Assembly: GCA_002737725.1 (NCBI GenBank)
Contig: NSIP01000004.1
Span: 124,001-188,000 of the forward strand
Reading direction: 5' to 3'
DNA length: 64,000 bases
DNA from: Rhodospirillaceae bacterium
GTDB lineage: Bacteria; Pseudomonadota; Alphaproteobacteria; Rhodospirillales; Rhodospirillaceae
Below, piece after piece: positions 38,458-47,969 of the stretch. The notes below the pieces were generated by a model. The model saw only the letters and a program-made list of their open reading frames with translations, made no database searches and had not been told where the DNA came from. Position 1 is the stretch's first letter; each line of letters begins with the position of its first letter. Position numbers and translations under genes: made by a program.

Positions 38458-39219
38458 GTGATCAAGCTCAACACAACCCCTCTCGTCAGAGCGGCTGCCA
38501 TCGCCGGTGCCTGCGCAGCACTGGTCTTGCTTATACTTGTCAGTATCATCAGCTCAGCAACGTCCAGCGGCCAAGCCTTCGCGATAGCCTCGATCATGAC
38601 CTACGTGTTGGCCATCCCCATCGTCATCCTAAAAATAAGAGCATATCACCCTTTCTCACGATTGGGGGCTGCCAATATGGTTACCCTCGCACGCCTTGTT
38701 ATCACGTGCCTGTTGGCGGGACTTGCTGCGGAACTTCTACTCTCTGGCGCAAAGTTACAAAATTCCCTCACTTGGTTTTTCTTTGGTATCGCTGCATTGG
38801 GCACAGCGCTTGATGGTTTAGACGGATTTCTTGCGCGCCGCTTCAGCACCGAGTCAGCCTTTGGCGCTCGATTTGACATGGAAGTTGATGCGTTCCAAAT
38901 TTTCTGCCTCGCCGTGATCACTGCATTGTTGCTGAAGGCCGGATGGTGGGTTTTGCTCAGTGGGCTGCTTCGGTATGCGTTTGTGGCCGCTGCGCTTGTG
39001 TACACTCCGCTCAGCCGCCCCCTATTCCCATCCTGGCGGCGCAAGTTTGCAGCAGTAGTACAAAACAGCGTATTGGTCATGGTGATGATACCAAGTGTGA
39101 CCCAACCAGAAAGCGGGTATGTTGCCGCCCTGGCGCTTGCACTATTAGTTTATTCATTTTCTGTTGATGTCTTATGGCTCACTCTGAAATCTCCGCTACG
39201 ACCGGCGCGTTTGTCATGA
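38458..39219 (+). CDS. CDP-alcohol phosphatidyltransferase family protein
   Basis: A 253-residue membrane enzyme. The full family signature D-x2-D-G-x2-A-R-x8-G-x3-D-x3-D is present: LDGLDGFLARRFSTESAFG... with Asp119, Asp122, Gly123, Ala126, Arg127, Gly136, Asp140 and Asp144. Six or so membrane helices surround it. These enzymes join a CDP-activated group to an alcohol (phosphatidylglycerol, inositol or choline head groups). The acceptor here is unknown. An ATG for the next gene overlaps its stop (ATGA), which couples the two. First gene of the nine-gene locus. Confidence 0.9.
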   Translation: MIKLNTTPLVRAAAIAGACAALVLLILVSIISSATSSGQAFAIASIMTYVLAIPIVILKIRAYHPFSRLGAANMVTLARLVITCLLAGLAAELLLSGAKLQNSLTWFFFGIAALGTALDGLDGFLARRFSTESAFGARFDMEVDAFQIFCLAVITALLLKAGWWVLLSGLLRYAFVAAALVYTPLSRPLFPSWRRKFAAVVQNSVLVMVMIPSVTQPESGYVAALALALLVYSFSVDVLWLTLKSPLRPARLS

Positions 39220-40853
39220 GCGCGCCGAAGCCATGGTGGCAGCTTGTGATTTCCATCAGCGTTCTATTTATCGTTTTGGGACTGCCGCATTGGCCCGGCA
39301 ACCTTTCCCTTCTCTGGTTTGCGCGACTGCCGCTCGAGCTGCCTGTTCTTTTCCTGGCGCTTGTCATCACGCATGGCACCACTCAAAGAGGCTTGGGAGT
39401 AGTCATTGCCGTCACTCTTGGCGCATTGACCTTTCTCAAGATCGCCAACCTCGTGACTTACACCGGATTTGCAAGGCCGTTTAACATTCTGGTCGACCCC
39501 GCATTGGTTTGGGTTGCTCTGAGTACAGCCAGCCAAAGTCAGGGCGCTATGTTCGGCGCAGGCCTTGTCGTCGCAGTTCTCGCCACGATTACGATTACCT
39601 TTTCATCCCTTTGGTGGGCGACGCTCACCCTTGCTTCGCGCTGCACACCTGTCTTCAAAGGCCGCGGCATCACCCTGGCCACGCTCATGTTGATTTGCGC
39701 GTTCGCCCTCCAAGACGTAAAGCTCACTTCCGCGTGGTGGCCAGTGACTAGTTTTGAGACATCGAAATTTGCAGTCGAACGCGTTGCTTCAGTTGCCGAG
39801 GGTTTACGCAATGATCGCCGTTTCCGAGAAGAGATGGCAACAAGCGACGTTATGGCAATTCCAACGGACCAGCGCCTAGCCCGGTTAAAAAATATTGATG
39901 TGCTCCTGGTCTTCGCGGAGTCATACGGCCGCGTAGCTTTAGATGACCCATCCCAGTTCACCACGCTGCGGGCGACCCTGCAACAGTTTGAGATCGAGCT
40001 TTCTAAAAAGGGGTTTGCATCGCGCAGCGCTTGGCTTACCTCGCCAACGTTCGGGGGCCAAAGCTGGCTGGCGCATGGGACATTTCTATCTGGATTGTGG
40101 CTGGATGATCAGGGTCGTTACGACAGCTTGTTTATTAGCAACCGCGATACTGTAATCGGGGATTTTGGCAAAAATGGGTGGCGCACGGTTGCGGTGATGC
40201 CTCAAATTACGTTGGACTGGCCAGAGGCAGATTTTTTTGGCTATGACAAAATCTACGCCGCACAAGACTTGAACTATCAAGGTCAATCTTTTGACTACAT
40301 GACCATGCCCGACCAATATACCCTTGCTGTGCTTGATAAGCGTGAGCTTTCGCCCAAAGATCGCCGCCCCATTATGGCCGAGATTGGGCTGGTGTCTGGT
40401 CATATCCCTTGGGCCCCACTGCCGCTGCTGATCGCCTGGGATGAAGTTGGAAACGGCAGCGTATTTGACATTGCACGGACACCAACCGTTGATGTCGATT
40501 GGCTCAACCAAGCACAACTCAAGCAAGACTACACGCGCTCTATGGACTATGTTTTGCGAACCTTACTGTCATTTCTTTTGATCGAAGGTCGAGAAAACAT
40601 CGTGATGATAATCGTGGGGGACCACCAACCTGCACCGATTGTGAGCGGACAGTCCGCAACTCATGACGTGCCAATTCATATCATTGCGAGCAATCCGGCC
40701 CTGTTAACCGCTATCGACGATTGGCACTGGACCGTCGGGATGATGCCCACAGACTCAAGTCCAATTTGGCGGATGGATGTGATGCGTGAAAAAATACTCA
40801 GTGCCTTTACACCGCCGACAGATGTGCGCATGGCTCAAGACAGCGCGCAGTGA
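39216..40853 (+). CDS. Membrane alkaline-phosphatase-superfamily (sulfatase/LtaS-like) protein
   Basis: A 545-residue protein. N-terminal half: five or six membrane helices (about 5-165). C-terminal half: an alkaline-phosphatase-like domain with VLLVFAESYGR, the PTFGGQSWLAHGTFLSG region for the nucleophile, and VGDHQPAP as metal ligands. Proteins of this shape transfer phosphoethanolamine, phosphoglycerol or other phospho-groups, as in LtaS and EptA. The start at 39216 is preferred for its ATGA overlap; an upstream in-frame ATG at 39174 also exists. Pairing with a CDP-alcohol transferase suggests a lipid head-group modification (inference). Confidence 0.8.
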   Translation: MSAPKPWWQLVISISVLFIVLGLPHWPGNLSLLWFARLPLELPVLFLALVITHGTTQRGLGVVIAVTLGALTFLKIANLVTYTGFARPFNILVDPALVWVALSTASQSQGAMFGAGLVVAVLATITITFSSLWWATLTLASRCTPVFKGRGITLATLMLICAFALQDVKLTSAWWPVTSFETSKFAVERVASVAEGLRNDRRFREEMATSDVMAIPTDQRLARLKNIDVLLVFAESYGRVALDDPSQFTTLRATLQQFEIELSKKGFASRSAWLTSPTFGGQSWLAHGTFLSGLWLDDQGRYDSLFISNRDTVIGDFGKNGWRTVAVMPQITLDWPEADFFGYDKIYAAQDLNYQGQSFDYMTMPDQYTLAVLDKRELSPKDRRPIMAEIGLVSGHIPWAPLPLLIAWDEVGNGSVFDIARTPTVDVDWLNQAQLKQDYTRSMDYVLRTLLSFLLIEGRENIVMIIVGDHQPAPIVSGQSATHDVPIHIIASNPALLTAIDDWHWTVGMMPTDSSPIWRMDVMREKILSAFTPPTDVRMAQDSAQ

Positions 40854-40864
40854 TTGGGTAGATC

Positions 40865-41626
40865 ATGTTTCACCATTACGCTCAACTCACGCAAGAGATG
40901 GTTTCCAATCCACAGGCAATTACGGTGATACCGCTTGCAGCTATGGAAGCGCACGGGCCGCACCTACCACTCGGAACAGATGGGATAATTGTCGATGGTA
41001 TCCTCGACCACGCAGCTGCATTGGACCAATCGGCGCATGCGGTATATCGACTGCCAACCCTTTGGCTGGGCGCATCGGAGGAGCACGTTGACCACCCCGG
41101 AACGCTGTCTTTAAATGCCGAACAAATGATCAGCCAGATTGTGGCGATTGGTGAAGGACTCGCCCATTGCGGTCTTCGGCGTGTGATGTTGTTCAATGCA
41201 CATGGGGGCAATGTTGCGGCAGCGGCAATCGCCGCTTTGAAGCTCAGGACGCGTTTTGGCATGTTAGTCGCAAGCGCCCATTGGCTCGACTTCGGTCTCC
41301 CAGATGGCTTCACCGCCCCCGGCTCTGTGATGGCCGATGTTCATGGTGGCTGGGTTGAGACATCAATTCTGCTTCATGTGAACCCTCAGCTTGTATCGAA
41401 AGAGTTACCACCGCCCGCGCCACCAGCAACACCCACGCCAAGTTTATTTCCCAACGGCAATATCCAATGGGGGTGGAAAACCTCTGACCTTGCGCAGGGC
41501 GGGTACATTGGCTGGCCAGATCTCGCCACGGCGGCCATAGGTCGCGCTTTGACGGCCCATGCAGCGGAAAGACTAGTGCAAACTTTGTGCGAATTAGCCG
41601 ATGCGAAATGGGCGCCACAGCCTTAA
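40865..41626 (+). CDS. Creatininase-family amidohydrolase
   Basis: A 253-residue protein. The metal-site residues of the family are present: MEAHGPHLPLGTD (Glu28, His30, Asp39), NAHGGN (His113) and DVHGGWVETS (Glu165). The family includes creatininase, MftE and archaeal ArfB, the formamide hydrolase that acts on the GTP ring-opening product in riboflavin/F420 synthesis. Next to GTP cyclohydrolase II and RibD genes, an ArfB-like amidohydrolase role is the most attractive reading, but GTP cyclohydrolase II releases formate itself, so another amide may be the target (inference). It follows the preceding gene by 11 bases. Confidence 0.9.
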   Translation: MFHHYAQLTQEMVSNPQAITVIPLAAMEAHGPHLPLGTDGIIVDGILDHAAALDQSAHAVYRLPTLWLGASEEHVDHPGTLSLNAEQMISQIVAIGEGLAHCGLRRVMLFNAHGGNVAAAAIAALKLRTRFGMLVASAHWLDFGLPDGFTAPGSVMADVHGGWVETSILLHVNPQLVSKELPPPAPPATPTPSLFPNGNIQWGWKTSDLAQGGYIGWPDLATAAIGRALTAHAAERLVQTLCELADAKWAPQP

Positions 41627-41641
41627 TGACAATGGCGCTAA

Positions 41642-42784
41642 TTACAACGGTCGCAGTTTTTGCCGTATGATCTCACCCAGCATATGTCCAGCATTTTTGG
41701 CTTTTGTCGTGAGGTAACTTAAATTGTGCGGATTGACGCTGCCCAACAGGCGTCGATGCCCCGTCACAGAGATACCGAAACTTTCAAGCGCTTTGAGCTT
41801 TTCGGGATTATTGGTCATGAGAATAACTTGTGGGAATTTAAGCAGCGACAGCATGGCGCTGGCAACCGCATAACGCCGTTCATCGGGCCCGTATCCGAGT
41901 ACAGCGTCGGCCTCAAGCGTATCGTGCCCAAGTTGCTGTAGCCCGTAGGCGCGCATTTTATTGACAAATCCAATCCCGCGCCCTTCTTGATCGAGATAGA
42001 GCAGCACACCGCCACCAGTTTCTGCAATTTCGGAAATGGCTATCCGAAGCTGATCACCGCAATCACATTTCAAGCTGGCAAAGAGGTCGCCTGTGAGGCA
42101 AGCCGAGTGCAACCGCGTGAGGACGGGGCGGCTTGGATCAGGCTGACCAACAATCACTGCAATTTGGTCGCGCAAACCATCTCCGCCGCGAAAGACGATA
42201 AATTCTGCTTGATCAGCTTCAGCCAGGGGGACGAAAGCGCGCGCCGCAATCGACAACTCCTTTGCTGAGTGATCATGAAAGTTTTCCACCGATTTTGCGT
42301 CGACAACGACCAGAGATGAATCATGAGAAGAGGTGTCGGGTAGAATCACTGCAGCGGGCAACATATATGCCAACTTAACCAACTCAAGTGCTATCGACTC
42401 ATGCACATCTGCTGCGCGTTGCGGGATGGTGGGCAATGTGGGTGATACAGCAAAGAGCATGGCATCAATATCTGCAGCCGACAGACCCGCCAACGAAAGG
42501 TGCGAGGCGTTTGTGGCCACAAACCCAAGGTGACGCAGGCGGGGGGCTGGAAGCACGAGTGCAGGTTTGGCATTGAATTTTTCTTGCCATTCGGCGAGGC
42601 GTTCGCCTCCCATTGTCTCGGCTGCCGCGACAATTTGGCTTTTGCCGCCACCTGCCTGGAGTCTGACCGGACGCCCGGCGCGGAGTTCGCCGATGGCGCG
42701 TTGCACCGAAAGCCGGCCTGGATCGCCTAACCAGCTTGCCAATCCTTCCTCGGCTAGGCCACTCTGGGAAATGTCTCTCAACAC
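41642..42784 (-). CDS. ribA: GTP cyclohydrolase II with N-terminal extension
   Basis: A 380-residue protein. Residues about 195-375 form a complete GTP cyclohydrolase II: zinc cysteines in SACLTGDLFASLKCDC (Cys229, Cys240, Cys242), YLDQEGRGIG (263-272) and TNNPEK (324-329). The enzyme opens GTP to 2,5-diamino-6-ribosylamino-pyrimidinone 5'-phosphate with loss of formate and pyrophosphate. The first 190 residues (VQRAIGELRAGRPVRL at about 27-42, LVLPAPRLRHLGF at 76-88) resemble a divergent remnant of the DHBP synthase half of bifunctional RibBA. GTG start with AGGTGA upstream. It is divergent from the RibD-like gene with only 24 bp between, leaving no room for an FMN riboswitch. Confidence 0.9.
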   Translation of the reverse strand: MLRDISQSGLAEEGLASWLGDPGRLSVQRAIGELRAGRPVRLQAGGGKSQIVAAAETMGGERLAEWQEKFNAKPALVLPAPRLRHLGFVATNASHLSLAGLSAADIDAMLFAVSPTLPTIPQRAADVHESIALELVKLAYMLPAAVILPDTSSHDSSLVVVDAKSVENFHDHSAKELSIAARAFVPLAEADQAEFIVFRGGDGLRDQIAVIVGQPDPSRPVLTRLHSACLTGDLFASLKCDCGDQLRIAISEIAETGGGVLLYLDQEGRGIGFVNKMRAYGLQQLGHDTLEADAVLGYGPDERRYAVASAMLSLLKFPQVILMTNNPEKLKALESFGISVTGHRRLLGSVNPHNLSYLTTKAKNAGHMLGEIIRQKLRPL

Positions 42785-42808
42785 GGGTCACCTGAGCTTA
42801 AAATCATT

Positions 42809-43588
42809 ATGAATCGATCCGACATATTGGACTGGACCAGAGACTCACCGCAATGGTCGGCATTGCTCGCAAGCGCTCGTGATTCCAGGGCGGCAAAGGA
42901 TATGACGCTCAATCCCTTATGGCCAGTATATGGCTGCCTGACTGGACATCGAGCTCAGTATAGACCTTTTGTCATCGGGCAGATTGGCCAAACCTTGGAC
43001 GGTCGAATCGCCACCGCAACGGGCCAATCGCACTATATCAATGGCGAAAGTGCCATTACCCATCTCCACCGGATTCGCGCCTTGGTGGATGCGGTGGTTA
43101 TCGGCGTTGGTACAGCCATCGCTGACGACCCCCAGCTGACGGTTCGTCATGTGGCTGGCTCACATCCGGCTCGGGTTGTCATTGATCCTCATGGCCGGCT
43201 GCCGCTCAGCGCGAAGTGTTTAGCTGCGGATGGCGTGCGTCGAATCATCGTTCAGGCGAGCAATAAATCCTGGCCAGCGGGGATTGAAGTTCTGAACTTA
43301 CCAGAAAAGAACGTTAGCCTTGAACCTCAAGCGATCATCTCAGCTCTGCATGCGGTAGGTTTTCGGCGCATTCTGATTGAGGGCGGGTCAAACACATTGT
43401 CACGCTTTCTAAACGCCGCGTGCCTTGACCGGTTACATGTCATGGTTGCGCCAATGATTATTGGATCGGGCCCCATCGGCGTTGAACTCCCCGCGATCTC
43501 GTCCCTCGCCGATGCGCTGCGGCCAGCCGTATCAGTTTTTAAGCTTCCAGAGGGTGACGTTCTTTTCGACTGCGCGTTTCAGCCCTGA
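42809..43588 (+). CDS. RibD C-terminal-type reductase (no deaminase domain)
   Basis: A 259-residue protein of the RibD C-terminal/DHFR-like reductase family. Visible: IGQTLDGRIATATGQSHYI (about 57-75), VDAVVIGVGTAIADDPQLTVR, and FRRILIEGGSNTLSRFL for NADPH binding. The N-terminal deaminase domain of bacterial RibD is missing; the first 50 residues do not contain its zinc motif. Fungal Rib7 and archaeal ArfC likewise reduce the ribosyl side chain before deamination. It overlaps the methyltransferase gene tail to tail by 10 bases. The lack of the deaminase suggests the 2-amino group of the pyrimidine is kept (inference). Confidence 0.87.
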   Translation: MNRSDILDWTRDSPQWSALLASARDSRAAKDMTLNPLWPVYGCLTGHRAQYRPFVIGQIGQTLDGRIATATGQSHYINGESAITHLHRIRALVDAVVIGVGTAIADDPQLTVRHVAGSHPARVVIDPHGRLPLSAKCLAADGVRRIIVQASNKSWPAGIEVLNLPEKNVSLEPQAIISALHAVGFRRILIEGGSNTLSRFLNAACLDRLHVMVAPMIIGSGPIGVELPAISSLADALRPAVSVFKLPEGDVLFDCAFQP

Positions 43589-44433
43589 TCTTTGCCCAGG
43601 CGCGCAAAAAAGTCGCGGTGCCCGACAGTGAGTGACTTGATTTCACCGGTGTGAGAGCGCCGCCATTGCGTGATCTCGCTGGGTTCTAGCAGTCCTGTTT
43701 CGAAGACGGCGTTCGCGATCCCATTCAGTGTTTCATCCAAAAGCTGAGAGCTTGATTGGCGGTCGAGAAACCAAGCGCTATCGCCCGCAGTCAGATCATA
43801 GCCGAGTTTGGTCATTTCTTGCTCTATTGCATGTGCTGCGCTGGCCCCTGCTGCGGGGCCGAATCCTTTATCGCGATTTTGATGCAGATTGAATGATTCC
43901 CGTACCGCCCGGTCATGGTCATGATGAGGCTCGCACTGGATGAGTCCGTCAAATGTGAGCGTCGCGAGCAAAGGCAAGCCACGAGATCGCAAAGCCATCG
44001 CAAGGTCTTTCATCCAGCGCCCTGATGTGAGATCAAGCAGTGCCGAGGCCGTTACCAATTCCGTGGAATCCGGCCAACACTTTGGATGCGCCGAGAGATC
44101 AAGCTGTAAGGTTTGCACCTGAATATACTTATTGCCACGACGCAACTCGATACCGGCCGCACACAAGGCCGCGGTATCCGACCATTCTGCCAACACGACC
44201 AGCGCTGATGCCAAATTTTCGGCGTCATGATCAACCAGTGTCCAGCTTTGCTTTGCGGGCAGTAGCTCTGCGAATGCCTGCACCGAAGCCCCAGTCCCCG
44301 AACCGAGATCGCAGATGGCCAAGCTCTCGCGCCCCTCGAATGCACTGGCGCAAGCCGCAAGGACAGATTTATTTCGAGACGCCACGTCAGTCGGCTCGCG
44401 CAATTGGAGCCAATCTTGCGAAAACTTGTTCAT
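43579..44433 (-). CDS. SAM-dependent methyltransferase of the pterin-like locus
   Basis: A 284-residue class I methyltransferase. Motif I is ICDLGSGTGASVQ (about 40-52), with a WTLVDHDAENLASA acidic loop (about 63-76) and a later LVTASALLDLTSGRW, where the catalytic region begins. The Gln/Ser-rich C-terminal half is specific to this group and no substrate can be read from it. Its start overlaps the glycosyltransferase stop by ATGA, so the order dehydrogenase, PTPS, GT4, methyltransferase is one transcript. It would methylate the product of the locus (inference). Confidence 0.85.
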   Translation of the reverse strand: MNKFSQDWLQLREPTDVASRNKSVLAACASAFEGRESLAICDLGSGTGASVQAFAELLPAKQSWTLVDHDAENLASALVVLAEWSDTAALCAAGIELRRGNKYIQVQTLQLDLSAHPKCWPDSTELVTASALLDLTSGRWMKDLAMALRSRGLPLLATLTFDGLIQCEPHHDHDRAVRESFNLHQNRDKGFGPAAGASAAHAIEQEMTKLGYDLTAGDSAWFLDRQSSSQLLDETLNGIANAVFETGLLEPSEITQWRRSHTGEIKSLTVGHRDFFARLGKDQG

Positions 44434-45512
44434 CGCGTTACCGCGCTCAGAGCCGTCGCGACAGATGTCCCAGTGTTAGCCCAACTTGGCAAGCCTTGCG
44501 CGTGTTCCCAAGCTGCATTGGAAAGAGAATCGCTTAAATTTGAGTCACAGAGAAGACGTCTGAGCGCGAGAGAAAGAGCCTCCACATTATCCACAGGAAC
44601 AAGCAAACTTGCGTTTTTTGGCACAGTCAAAGGCACCGCTCCTGAAGCGCACGCAACAACGGGAAGCCCATGCGCCAGGGCCTCTGCGAACGCCATGCCA
44701 TAGCCTTCGTAGCGTGATGGAAGCACAAAAATGCTGGCGCGATTGTATTCAGCCTCTAGGGTTTCAGCACTCACCTCTCCGCGAAATTCAATCCGCGCAG
44801 CGATATGACTGTTTTGCGCAAAGATTTTCAACTTAGCCACTGTATCGGGCTCGCGCGCTAGACTTCCAATGCTGATCGCCGTCCACGCAAGGTCAGCGAG
44901 TTGTGCCAACGCCCCAACCAAAACATCATAGCCTTTGCGATGGGTCACGGTTGCCACTGTCAAAAGTTGCGGAGGGGATTTATTGCGCTCTGCGCGTTGT
45001 TTTTGATCGGTGCCTGGCAAAGCTACATCAAGCTTGGATCGGGGAACACCATAACTCTCGACAAGTGTATCGGCCGTAAACGGGCTGGTCACAATTACAC
45101 GACAAGCCGCGTTGAGTGCGACGCGCTCAGACTCCTTCAACCTCTGCCGCTCTGCATCTGTGAGCCCTGTTTCTAGCGCCAGCGGATGGTGCACAAGGGC
45201 AACAAAGTTGAGTTGCAAGCCATCGAAAACAACGCGCGGGGTTGCTCCGAAAGCAAGGCCATCGACCAAAACGAGCGAGCCGGGCGGCAAGGCTTCAAAT
45301 AAACGTCGTGTTTGGTGAATCTCTTCATCGGTTGGGCGCGGGAAACCAACTGGCAAAGACAACACTTCAACGCGCCAGCCGGTGGCCTGGAGATTTTCAA
45401 TGAGATGCCGGGCATAGACATAACCGCCCGTCATAGTTTCGAGGTCGCCAGGGATTGCAAACCAAAGTTTAGGTCGCGACAAGATCTGCCTCGTAGGCGG
45501 CGCTGGCCACAT
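44430..45512 (-). CDS. GT4-family glycosyltransferase
   Basis: A retaining glycosyltransferase of family GT4 with the GT-B fold. The N-terminal half has the Gly-rich acceptor loop (IPGDLETMTGGYVYARHLIE), the C-terminal half has LLTVATVTHRKGYDVLV and the nucleotide-sugar motif PSRYEGYGMAFAEALAHG (EX7E). Length about 360 residues, as usual. The start is uncertain: the ATG at 45512 overlaps the PTPS gene by 44 bases, and a TTG at 45482 is a second candidate. It is a soluble cytosolic enzyme that would attach a sugar to the pathway product. Confidence 0.86.
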   Translation of the reverse strand: MWPAPPTRQILSRPKLWFAIPGDLETMTGGYVYARHLIENLQATGWRVEVLSLPVGFPRPTDEEIHQTRRLFEALPPGSLVLVDGLAFGATPRVVFDGLQLNFVALVHHPLALETGLTDAERQRLKESERVALNAACRVIVTSPFTADTLVESYGVPRSKLDVALPGTDQKQRAERNKSPPQLLTVATVTHRKGYDVLVGALAQLADLAWTAISIGSLAREPDTVAKLKIFAQNSHIAARIEFRGEVSAETLEAEYNRASIFVLPSRYEGYGMAFAEALAHGLPVVACASGAVPLTVPKNASLLVPVDNVEALSLALRRLLCDSNLSDSLSNAAWEHAQGLPSWANTGTSVATALSAVTR

Positions 45513-45876
45513 GCGATTCGTGCAACGTGATCTTGAGGTGAGCGATGCCCTTGGCTGATGGCCCCAGCTTACCGCAACGAATAGCATCAGCTATGCGGGA
45601 AAAGATCCACTTGGCAACAGCTTCCGTGGTCGAGCGGCGGCCACGAAACTCTGGGTGTTCGTCAAGATTACTGAAGTTAATTATGCCGAGCGTTTCTTTC
45701 ACAACATCAGTCGCAAGCCCTATATCGACGACGATGTCGTTTTCGTCCAACTCAGGTCTGACAAAACAGACATCAACAACATACGTTGCGCCGTGCAGTT
45801 TTTGAGCGGGGCCGAAGGCTTCGCCCTTAATACTATGAGCAATCATCACATGTTCGCGAACGGTTACGCTATACAT
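45469..45876 (-). CDS. 6-pyruvoyl-/6-carboxy-tetrahydropterin synthase homologue with altered zinc site
   Basis: A 135-residue protein of the PTPS/QueD family. Standard members bind zinc with one His and a LHGH pair; here the sequence has His14 (MIAHSIKG) and His28 in KLHGATY, so the third ligand is Ala30. The usual catalytic Cys in the loop before LHGH is missing too. Later residues are kept: NLDEHPEF (His74) and TLHESHVASAAYE (Glu120). The family acts on dihydroneopterin triphosphate or related pyrimidines. I recall the HGAT variant as typical of a distinct subfamily, so this may be a specialised enzyme. Between the dehydrogenase gene (22-bp gap) and the GT4 gene (overlap). Confidence 0.83.
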   Translation of the reverse strand: MYSVTVREHVMIAHSIKGEAFGPAQKLHGATYVVDVCFVRPELDENDIVVDIGLATDVVKETLGIINFSNLDEHPEFRGRRSTTEAVAKWIFSRIADAIRCGKLGPSAKGIAHLKITLHESHVASAAYEADLVAT

Positions 45877-45898
45877 AGCTTTTCGATCCTTACGGAAT

Positions 45899-46873
45899 TC
45901 AAGTGTAGGTCAGAACAGTCGTCAAACCGGAACTGTCTGCAGCAAGTGCTTGCGCGAGCTGAGCGGGCGCGTCATCGAAGGCGATGTCTTGTGTCAGCAG
46001 AGCATCGAAAACACTATTGCACAACAATTCAAGGGCAACCTTCAGCCGTCGAGATGTTGGCCAACGAGCCCGTTGATGCGCGGGAACTGTCCCGACCTGA
46101 GATGATAAGAGCTTCAAGCGTCGCGAGTGGAAAGCCTCACCAAGATTAAGCTTTATGTCCTTATCGCCGTACCAGCTGGCCTCAATCACGCGCGCTTCTA
46201 TTCCTGCACAGCTGAGCGCAAGCCTCAGCCCCTCCTCACTCGCACTTGTGTGTATGACCACATCTTGTTCAGCTGGCGCTGTATAGGGCAAAGCAAACTG
46301 TGCTCCTACTTTCTCAGCAAGGCCCGCGCGGCTTGGGTCAATGTCAACAATTGTGACGCGCGTTCCAGCTGATCGGGCGGCAAGCGCGGCTGTTAAAATG
46401 CCGACCGTTCCGCCACCAATAATGAGAACATGATCCCCCGGCGCGATGCCAGCATCCCACACGATATTCAGGGCTGTTTCCATATTCGCCGCCAGGGTAG
46501 CCCGCCGAAATGGCAGCCCCTCTGGTATAATGTGCGCCTGTTCGCTGGGAATACAGAACTGCCGTTGATGCGGATGTAACGCGAAAACGGCTTGCCCAAT
46601 GCGATCAGCTGGACCTGCCAGTATCTTTCCGACCACGGCGTAACCATATTTTACTGGAAATGGAAACGAGCCTTCCTGGTGTGGACAGCGCATCCGGTCA
46701 TGCTCGGTGCTTGGAATATGGCCACGTAAGACAAGTCGCTCGGTTCCGCGGCTGATGGCAGAATATCGCGCACCGATGAGAACATCGCCGTCTCGTAAAG
46801 TATCAACTATGCCCGGGCGCATCTCTACTTGCCCGCTCGATACATACCAAAGCGCATCGCTTTGCTGCATCAT
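45899..46873 (-). CDS. MDR-family dehydrogenase, BchC-like
   Basis: A 324-residue medium-chain dehydrogenase/reductase. YSAISRGTERLVLRG (about 37-51) is the N-terminal loop of the BchC-like branch, with Ser-Arg-Gly-Thr-Glu in place of the Cys-Gly zinc ligand. The cofactor domain follows with DHVLIIGGGTVGILTAALAARSAGT and a VTIVDIDPSR end that favours NAD(H). First gene of the minus-strand part of the locus. It could oxidise a side-chain alcohol of the pathway intermediate (inference). Two in-frame ATGs (46873, 46870); the first is used. Confidence 0.83.
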   Translation of the reverse strand: MMQQSDALWYVSSGQVEMRPGIVDTLRDGDVLIGARYSAISRGTERLVLRGHIPSTEHDRMRCPHQEGSFPFPVKYGYAVVGKILAGPADRIGQAVFALHPHQRQFCIPSEQAHIIPEGLPFRRATLAANMETALNIVWDAGIAPGDHVLIIGGGTVGILTAALAARSAGTRVTIVDIDPSRAGLAEKVGAQFALPYTAPAEQDVVIHTSASEEGLRLALSCAGIEARVIEASWYGDKDIKLNLGEAFHSRRLKLLSSQVGTVPAHQRARWPTSRRLKVALELLCNSVFDALLTQDIAFDDAPAQLAQALAADSSGLTTVLTYT

Positions 46874-46960
46874 CTTTGCCCTATCTCTCCCAAAAACCTC
46901 GCGCCGCTGCATCCGCTTTTTCAGCTGAGATCGGTCCGGCTCAGCTGAAACCTCAGCCTA

Positions 46961-47821
46961 TCAAGAGAAGGCCTTTTTGTAGTCAGAGAGGAATGTGTCT
47001 AATCCGATGGGGCTGCGCCCAAGCAGCTCCTGAAACGTATCGGTGATGGCTTCAATTTCGCGTTGCCCCTTGGCCGTTGTTGCAAAGATTTCGCAAACAG
47101 CTTCGACGCGCCACGGGTCTGGCAGCGCCTTCAATAAATTCTCACGGTAGGCGGCTAATGGTGGGTCAACAAACTTGACAGGTTTGTCGATAATCCGACT
47201 CAGTCGCGTGGCAATCTCGACGAATGTGACGCTCTCAGAACCTGTGAGTTTGTAACTCTGCCCCTCATGGCCTGGCTCTAACAAGACCTTCGCGATGACG
47301 GCGCCTGCATCGCGGCAATCGACCATGCTGATGCGTGCGCCGCCAACAGGCATCGTGAGCTCGCCGCGCGCCTTTACGCCGTTAGCTGCCGCCAGCAACG
47401 TTTGCATGAAGAAATTAGGTTTTACCATGGTCCACTCGAGGCCCGAAGCTTTGACATAAGCTTCAGAGGCTGCATGCATTTCTGGCACGCGTGCACCAAT
47501 CCCGGCATGAGCCTCGATCGAAGAAATCTTGACGAGGTGCCGCACGCCCGAGGCCTTCGCGGTATCCGTAAAGCGCGCTTCCATATTTCCTTGCTGCTCT
47601 GTGTTTGGGAGCAAGAGAAAAGCCCGATCAATGCCGCGCATGGCGTCTTTTAGAAATTGGAGATCACTCAGATCACCAACCGCAATTTCATGGCCGAGCG
47701 CTGCCAATTGAGACGCCTTTGCGGCATCCCTGGTCACAACACGAGCTTTGTGGCCAGCCACAGCAATGGCGGTTGCTGCCGCCATTGCTGTTTTGCCTGT
47801 CGCACCAGTTAATAAAATCAT
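46961..47821 (-). CDS. NmrA-like NAD(P)-binding protein
   Basis: A 286-residue atypical short-chain reductase of the NmrA/NAD(P)H quinone oxidoreductase group. MILLTGATGKTAMAAATAIAVAG holds the nucleotide loop; the second strand ends in VVTRD, favouring NADP(H). Segments FLLLPNTEQQGNMEARF and VKPNFFMQTLL are usual for the family. AAGGGAAGTGGG precedes the ATG at 47821. It lies upstream of the dehydrogenase gene of the locus by 87 bp on the same strand, but a short distance also separates it from the helicase gene, so membership in either is open. Confidence 0.8.
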   Translation of the reverse strand: MILLTGATGKTAMAAATAIAVAGHKARVVTRDAAKASQLAALGHEIAVGDLSDLQFLKDAMRGIDRAFLLLPNTEQQGNMEARFTDTAKASGVRHLVKISSIEAHAGIGARVPEMHAASEAYVKASGLEWTMVKPNFFMQTLLAAANGVKARGELTMPVGGARISMVDCRDAGAVIAKVLLEPGHEGQSYKLTGSESVTFVEIATRLSRIIDKPVKFVDPPLAAYRENLLKALPDPWRVEAVCEIFATTAKGQREIEAITDTFQELLGRSPIGLDTFLSDYKKAFS

Positions 47822-47969
47822 CCCACTTCCCTTTTTCAACTCGACAGAGACCCGGAGCCTTCGGCTGTCTCGAACGAGATCAACGCGAACCACGCTTGAC
47901 CCATCGTATCTTTAAAAGATTCCATACTCTTATGACCAGAGAATTTTCGATGGCGAGGCTGCCGCGTGG

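Follow-up and report, generated by a model that had tools for sequence, protein, structure and literature searches.

A widespread, co-inherited gene set from a Rhodospirillaceae bacterium with a putative GTP-derived product

What is made by a gene set that combines riboflavin-type enzymes for opening GTP with a methyltransferase, a glycosyltransferase and a pterin-enzyme homologue? We examined this for a nine-gene locus in a 64,000-nucleotide stretch of contig NSIP01000004.1 from a Rhodospirillaceae bacterium (GCA_002737725.1), hereafter the window. The locus encodes a GTP cyclohydrolase II (GCHII; gene GCH2), a RibD_C-family reductase (RED), a creatininase-family protein (CRE), a methyltransferase (MT), a family 4 glycosyltransferase (GT4), a PTPS/QueD homologue (PTPS), a medium-chain dehydrogenase (MDR), and two membrane proteins, i.e., a CDP-alcohol phosphotransferase (CDPOH) and a predicted member of the alkaline-phosphatase superfamily (ALP; Table 1). 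The original prediction, made from the DNA letters alone, read these genes as an uncharacterized branch from GTP to a methylated, glycosylated pyrimidine or pterin, apart from riboflavin synthesis and with lipid tailoring genes. Overall, we find that the gene set is real, widespread, and dedicated to a putative GTP-derived compound. Our best explanation, to which we assign a probability of roughly 55%, is a dedicated, mobile pathway that starts from GTP, branches off ahead of riboflavin, and leads to a methylated, glycosylated, pterin-like product, often linked to the envelope. Directly observed here are the genes themselves, their inheritance as a set, their distinctness from the host's riboflavin and QueD-like genes, and the states of their active sites; from these we infer the reactions and the product described below.

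Conservation, co-inheritance, and mobility of the gene set

Loci were collected with RED as query, those from genome_contigs being the best 80 of at least 549 matches, some of which may be ordinary RibD; since these 80 are best-scoring and RED-picked, the frequencies below describe close relatives. Neighborhoods were counted across 119 non-redundant loci (from 122, three having been merged at 95% RED identity), leaving out the host's own loci L049–L052 and matches below score thresholds, and neighbor families were scored by profile and named by Pfam where possible. A five-gene core (RED, MT, GT4, PTPS, and MDR) was complete in 85 loci, a figure that could be too low where open reading frame (ORF) calling or errors in metagenome-assembled genomes (MAGs) split or fused a gene, e.g., MT in L053 and L057. 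When >6 kb of sequence flanked RED on both sides (n = 84), 68 loci held the full core and 16 did not. Neighbors of the 85 full cores included GCH2 (56 loci), an OpgH-like membrane glucosyltransferase (50), cytochrome b561 (43), FkbM (32), CRE (30), CDPOH (21), and ALP (17). The best 80 RED-type loci came from alphaproteobacteria of several orders and from Burkholderiales, e.g., Polynucleobacter rarus and Jezberella: the guess that similar neighborhoods recur in alphaproteobacteria was borne out, and the pattern reaches beyond them. Within a 150-genome sample of the order, the host's own included, RED was matched at E ≤ 8e-48 in 16 genomes, while the remaining matches began at 7e-30, leaving a wide gap.

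In one fixed set of 289 genomes from the class, the RED family was found in 35 and the PTPS family in 40, i.e., about 1 in 7–8 sampled genomes carries the pathway. All 35 RED genomes also held the PTPS family (P = 4e-40, ignoring kinship), and the two genes were <3 kb apart in 33 of them, 62 kb apart in G172, and on separate contigs in G177. In a wider phylum sample, the PTPS family occurred in 32 of 397 genomes. Three streamlined genomes, two of 1.4 Mb from the same genus (G363 and G431) and one of 1.6 Mb from another family (G283), carry GCH2, RED, MT, GT4, PTPS, MDR, and CRE side by side, with no other family of our profile set in the 20 kb read. This seven-gene unit is our best estimate of the pathway proper.

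RED matches were also detected in 13 plasmid records (two from one strain). Core genes stood together on plasmids of Microbacterium, Ca. Thiodictyon syntrophicum, Palleronia, Streptomyces globisporus, Methylosinus trichosporium OB3b, and Agrobacterium, the cassette being plasmid-borne also in Actinomycetota and Chromatiales. In the RED tree, the actinobacterial pair fell outside the proteobacterial rows and Burkholderiales rows nested with a Xanthobacteraceae row, which fits transfer between classes; as part of our best explanation, the pathway is probably horizontally mobile. Retention of all seven genes in genomes of 1.4–1.6 Mb, together with plasmid cassettes in two phyla, argues for a valued molecule, and this appears to be a widespread bacterial small molecule, probably distinct from vitamin B2. 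A search of the open-licence literature showed no product for these genes.

Mobility and gene content could also point to a nucleoside- or azapteridine-type antibiotic. The toxoflavin cluster, toxA-E, includes a RibD-type deaminase/reductase, ToxE, and has GCHII, pyrimidine reductase, and methyltransferase genes in common with the locus, which additionally holds PTPS, MDR, and GT4; occurrence in two phyla and on plasmids would suit an antibiotic cluster. However, retention in streamlined genomes would be unusual for an antibiotic, and the window reductase has no deaminase domain; we consider this alternative very unlikely.

The 2.9 Mb genome of the host (37 contigs) supports the separateness of the pathway from riboflavin synthesis. 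It contains three GTP_cyclohydro2 matches, and the locus gene is thus not its sole GCHII, a point that the original prediction had put up for checking. One contig (C1, L049) encodes a RibA in which both the zinc cysteines and the tyrosine are kept. On another (C21, L050), a deaminase-containing ribD is followed by ribE, ribBA, and ribH. The GCHII half of this RibBA (L050:4611-5792) lacks the zinc cysteines in translation, hence the functional enzyme is presumably the RibA on C1. Contig C34 (L219) holds a further PTPS-family match, better than that of the locus and directly before a QueC-like frame (read by eye); this QueD-like protein keeps the HGH and DH motifs and has no Cys at the usual place. 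With a full riboflavin set and a QueD-like gene elsewhere, the GCHII, reductase, and PTPS-family genes of the locus are extra, which supports the proposed GTP branch apart from riboflavin. The absence of ribB, ribE, and ribH from the locus, as predicted, was likewise confirmed, all three being found elsewhere in the host genome.

Could the locus instead be a second, inducible module for riboflavin synthesis or flavin secretion, akin to the RibBA/BrbF modularity of Sinorhizobium, with MT, GT4, PTPS, and MDR as accidental neighbors? Its GCHII, pyrimidine reductase, and candidate creatininase-family formamidase are riboflavin-type enzymes, and flavin modules do exist in alphaproteobacteria (PMC9478397). 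Yet deaminase, lumazine synthase, riboflavin synthase, and DHBP synthase are absent from the nine ORFs, and none of the four was recognized among the 30 most frequent neighbor families, with no profile search made in the other loci. Moreover, PTPS, MDR, GT4, and MT are the most constant partners, and these four persist together in four loci without cluster-type RED or GCH2. We consider a second flavin module of this kind very unlikely.

Active sites and a proposed route from GTP

We then consider what the individual enzymes of the dedicated pathway may do. In the window GCH2, the three zinc cysteines and the catalytic Tyr, Asp, and Arg are all present, and the three Cys and the Tyr (E. coli positions 54, 65, 67, and 105) are kept in 73 of 73 aligned proteobacterial rows, a set in which some loci appear twice (e.g., L035/L059 and L040/L072, each pair on one contig) and three genes lie several kb from RED (L101, L105, L117). 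Because this active site is intact, GCH2 would open GTP to 2,5-diamino-6-ribosylamino-4(3H)-pyrimidinone 5′-phosphate (step 1). Among plasmid copies, those of Palleronia and Agrobacterium (L185, L188) have Tyr, and that of S. globisporus (L186) has Met at this position.

CRE resembles the BrbF/ArfB formamidases in keeping the metal site of the creatininase family (E28, H30, D39, H113, and E165, invariant in 13 members), and scored 22 bits against the ArfB model and 107 bits against the MftE model, both below cut-off. BrbF, a creatininase-family enzyme of alphaproteobacteria, has been proven to deformylate FAPy (PMC9478397); its authors regard the matching cyclohydrolase as still to be discovered and report that two more distant homologues, from O. 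anthropi and Methylobacterium, failed to complement. Formamidase activity is therefore not assumable for CRE. A requirement for CRE as the deformylase of a Tyr-less GCH2 was rejected in proteobacterial loci, as Tyr is present in all 73 rows, 30 of them in CRE loci. We also sought a Tyr-less, zinc-bearing GCHII in seven genomes with CRE and without GCH2 (G031, G048, G074, G239, G333, G339, and G410) and found none, with one match (L247 of G074) unreadable and two genomes of the same type (G023, G044) outside the sample. CRE probably does have this role in the Streptomyces form, where it adjoins the Met-type GCH2: there, GCH2 would probably stop at the formyl compound FAPy, and CRE would remove the formate. 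Separately, in G339 (L251) and G410 (L252), the sole GTP_cyclohydro2 match lacks the three zinc cysteines and the Tyr; both genomes still have the cluster, CRE and RED included, a situation reminiscent of the cyclohydrolase still sought in the BrbF paper (PMC9478397).

The RED profile matched the solved diaminopyrimidine reductases 6p8c (8e-42) and 2azn (7e-37) best, ahead of bacterial RibD (3e-31). A 60-row tree set the 45 sequences of the RED family, that of the window among them, apart from 15 canonical RibD rows with a support of 100/100. Judging by sequence, RED is most like archaeal-type diaminopyrimidine reductases, which use a non-deaminated substrate. It would therefore make the ribitylamino compound with the 2-amino group kept (step 2), which would set the pathway apart from bacterial riboflavin synthesis. 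This proposed scheme, i.e., GTP opening, creatininase-family deformylation, and reduction before deamination, is shared with the ArfA-ArfB-ArfC and BrbF systems; however, the first enzyme of the locus is a GCHII rather than the GCH III of the Arf route, the later riboflavin genes are missing from the nine, and MT, GT4, PTPS, and MDR are added. Similarly, the locus shares the GCHII and RibD_C folds with RibA and RibD, but has no deaminase, RibB, RibE, or RibH, and its reductase forms a clade of its own. GTP cyclohydrolase I was tried as an alternative entry and rejected: among the loci scanned, FolE lay near the cluster only in L223 (11308-12075), L046 (14424-15155), and L047 (14371-15114), which is too few. 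All three are without cluster GCH2, and L223 is also without RED.

The PTPS homologue departs from PTPS/QueD at its active site. Three residues, Ala24, Ala30, and Glu120, do not vary among 41 sequences of the family, and when aligned to 2g64, Ala24 falls over the catalytic Cys, Ala30 over the second His of HGH, and a consensus Asn-Tyr (Asn-Phe in the window) over Asp-His, at the positions that we take to be those of the PTPS/QueD Cys-Asp-His triad and zinc histidines. At the zinc site, His14 and His28 are kept, and Ala30 replaces the third His. The family thus shares the T-fold and the retained Glu with PTPS/QueD but has neither the triad nor one zinc ligand, so that PTPS chemistry is not assumable: the original prediction's background point that PTPS acts on pterin precursors does not simply carry over to this protein, even though the homology itself is confirmed (PF01242).

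These replacements also bear on an alternative queuosine/7-deazaguanine or tetrahydrobiopterin route, in which the homologue would act as QueD or PTPS. The fold is consistent with such a role, and five plasmid annotations (L183, L184, L185, L187, and L188) name the protein 6-carboxytetrahydropterin synthase, four of them with a queuosine GO term; besides, Cys loss alone is not decisive, since the QueD-like protein on C34 is also without it. However, the C34 protein keeps its HGH and DH, whereas Asp, His, and one zinc His are also replaced in the locus protein, and the QueD function already has a candidate gene in the host. QueD and PTPS use the product of GTP cyclohydrolase I, which from family knowledge differs from the products of GCHII. 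We consider this route extremely improbable, and, given the active-site evidence, the plasmid naming is likely a misannotation.

The nearest solved structure to the PTPS profile was 3d7j, i.e., SCO6650 of Streptomyces coelicolor (E = 4.9e-60, positions 1–132 of 134). This protein reportedly lacks zinc, the triad, and PTPS activity but has a site for binding pterin-like molecules, in agreement with the family sites observed here, while the GCHII homologue SCO6655, with Met120, is said to make FAPy. The core gene set is found together in a Streptomyces record, the S. globisporus plasmid, as GCH2-CRE-RED-MT-GT4-PTPS-MDR-CDPOH (L186); its identity with the S. coelicolor cluster rests on SCO6650 and the locus numbers. 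The proteobacterial form differs in the Tyr of its GCH2, kept in the 73 rows as well as in L185 and L188. The term “uncharacterized” in the original prediction thus needs qualifying, as two proteins of the Streptomyces counterpart have already been studied. In Streptomyces, the pairing of a cyclohydrolase that makes FAPy with a PTPS homologue devoid of activity is reportedly an old puzzle, and the core set, two alternative envelope add-ons, and the cytochrome b561 neighbor make this puzzle testable in many easy strains.

In the weakest part of the proposed pathway (step 3), the Glu of the PTPS homologue may hold the 2-amino-4-oxopyrimidine ring during closure or adjustment of a second ring, and the BchC-like MDR may oxidize or reduce a side chain, giving a pterin-like core that MT would methylate and GT4 would glycosylate (step 4). 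Steps 1 and 2 are the firmest, while we infer the reactions of PTPS, MDR, MT, and GT4 from family and fold alone. A phototrophy link, suggested by the BchC-like MDR, was rejected as the main explanation, since 32 of the 40 PTPS genomes, the window's included, were without Photo_RC. In the 289-genome sample, Photo_RC was found in 20 genomes, five with RED (P = 0.078) and eight with PTPS (P = 0.0024), ignoring kinship and with two of the eight from the same genus; a partial link may exist.

Several observations weigh against the dedicated pathway as outlined here. Five of the 40 PTPS genomes are without the RED family; over 20 kb, four of these PTPS-only loci keep MDR-PTPS-GT4-MT and the fifth (L224 of G343) MDR and PTPS only, hence the RED step is either not indispensable or replaced. 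CRE and GCH2 occur together in 24 of the 85 full-core loci, 23 with a Tyr-type GCH2 (window included) and one with the Met-type (L186), compared to GCH2 alone in 32, CRE alone in 6, and neither in 23. A formamidase role for CRE would be redundant in the Tyr-type loci. In addition, the window locus is without cytochrome b561 and OpgH-like neighbors, and the substrates given for PTPS, MDR, MT, and GT4 are guesses.

Envelope modules and cytochrome b561

Lipid tailoring genes are present, as predicted, but they are optional: besides the minority of full-core loci with CDPOH or ALP, 50 others carry the OpgH-like glucosyltransferase instead. Specifically, CDPOH and/or ALP were found in 22 of the 85, no locus had both modules, and 13, including compact streamlined clusters, had neither (P = 1.2e-11, ignoring kinship). 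On a tree of RED, PTPS, and MDR, at least 5 changes between the two add-ons are needed versus at least 14 in 300 shuffles, suggesting that lineage explains much of the pattern, yet that the pattern arose anew on several occasions. A single locus not among the 85, L177 of G172, combines CDPOH with an OpgH-like gene.

The predicted fold of ALP (pLDDT 84; structure predictions left out plasmid rows and L166) matched LtaP, LtaS, and MCR-1, with LtaP best (E = 1.2e-9, TM 0.38/0.51), while a sequence search of the PDB gave 0 matches at E ≤ 0.1. Its candidate metal and nucleophile residues (E249, S297, T303, H410, D483, and H484) are identical in 9 of 9 aligned members. Flippase-like matches were obtained for 11 locus identifiers, i.e., ten distinct loci (L035 and L059 being the same), including the plasmid loci L183, L186, and L188; two were confirmed by Pfam, and the L186 match lies within a long ORF with uncertain limits. 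In an optional, lineage-specific step 5, the OpgH-like glucosyltransferase would link the product to a glycan or lipid of the envelope, or else the CDP-alcohol phosphotransferase and the LtaS/EptA-like transferase, sometimes with a flippase-like protein, would do so. The two modules may accordingly represent exchangeable ways to attach the product to the envelope.

The same modules could be read the other way around, as an envelope-glycan modification system that actually yields a decorated periplasmic glucan or phosphoglycolipid, on which the GTP-derived part is no more than a substituent. The frequency and mutual exclusion of the OpgH-like and CDPOH/ALP genes, the LtaS/EptA-like fold of ALP, and the flippase-like matches are all consistent with this. 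The 13 full-core loci without either module, streamlined clusters among them, are not, even if MAG flanks may miss genes, and we see this alternative as possible but doubtful.

For the dedicated pathway, cytochrome b561 suggests a more specific function. Of its 43 occurrences at full-core loci, 32 are <600 bp from RED, against a background of 56 matches in 17 hand-picked genomes, about 3 copies each. Tentatively, the product might be a new redox-active, glycosylated (8-ribityl)pterin-like cofactor, exported or membrane-anchored, that exchanges electrons with the adjoining cytochrome. If true, it would be an ascorbate-like or quinone-linked periplasmic carrier common to some phototrophs, methylotrophs, streamlined bacteria, and actinobacteria. 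However, the window locus and the streamlined clusters gave no b561 match, the four above cut-off in the window genome all being on other contigs; this counts against the redox-cofactor function, which we rate as unlikely.

Gene calls and further neighbors

All nine predicted ORFs were recovered (Table 1), spanning 38458-46873 or, with the longer MDR call, 46912. The packing is as tight as claimed, with every one of the eight junctions an overlap or a gap of ≤24 bp (-46, 11, 15, 24, -10, -4, -119, and 22 bp from CDPOH to MDR). The -119 bp overlap between GT4 and PTPS probably reflects a too-early listed start, with the GT4 start nearer 45512; GT4 lengths are 347–384 aa in 23 relatives once the start is chosen.

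Table 1 Genes of the locus, with positions in the window.
Gene	Description	Position	Strand	Evidence
CDPOH	CDP-alcohol phosphotransferase, membrane, optional module	38458..39219	+	PF01066, 55.7 bits; 21/85 full-core loci
ALP	Putative membrane-anchored LtaS/EptA-like alkaline-phosphatase-superfamily transferase, optional module	39174..40853	+	Foldseek LtaP 4uop, E 1.2e-9
CRE	Creatininase-family metal amidohydrolase, candidate FAPy formamidase	40865..41626	+	PF02633, 188.9 bits
GCH2	Dedicated GCHII with intact zinc and catalytic residues	41642..42784	-	PF00925, 159.8 bits
RED	RibD_C-family reductase without deaminase, archaeal-type	42809..43588	+	PF01872, 128.4 bits
MT	Class I S-adenosylmethionine-dependent methyltransferase	43579..44433	-	Methyltransf_25 in 23/23 family members, E ≤ 0.01
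GT4	Family 4 glycosyltransferase	44430..45512 (listed ORF to 45587)	-	PF00534, 92.4 bits
PTPS	T-fold PTPS/QueD homologue without catalytic triad	45469..45876	-	PF01242, 80.1 bits
MDR	BchC-like medium-chain dehydrogenase	45899..46912 (family start fits 46873)	-	NCBIfam bchC, 47.8 bits, below cut-off

The earlier gene names agree with Pfam, NCBIfam, profile, and fold results. Pfam matches above cut-off were obtained for CDP-OH_P_transf, Creatininase, GTP_cyclohydro2, RibD_C (without a deaminase domain), GT4, and PTPS. The MDR scored 31.1 bits for ADH_zinc_N, slightly below the cut-off of 31.8, and its AlphaFold model (pLDDT 92) matched MDR dehydrogenases (best E = 2.7e-21). For MT, the single-sequence Pfam match was below cut-off, so that family-level evidence was needed. 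The window ALP had no Pfam match at E ≤ 0.01; Sulfatase (PF00884) matched 6 of 11 members of the phosphatase-like family, the window's protein not among them.

An NmrA-like gene (46961-47893) shares the strand of MDR, with its end 48 bp ahead of the MDR start, and could be co-transcribed; its family is not among the listed frequent neighbor families. Two other neighbors had no Pfam match at E ≤ 1e-5: a putative exported protein of ~377 aa (L101:17118-18248) at 18 of the 85 full-core loci, and a membrane protein of ~800 aa (L074:6305-8698) at 14. Finally, the Palleronia plasmid (L185:5825-13599) carries a Rhodobacterales form of the cluster with a rearranged gene order, adjoined by an inositol monophosphatase family gene and a PfkB kinase.

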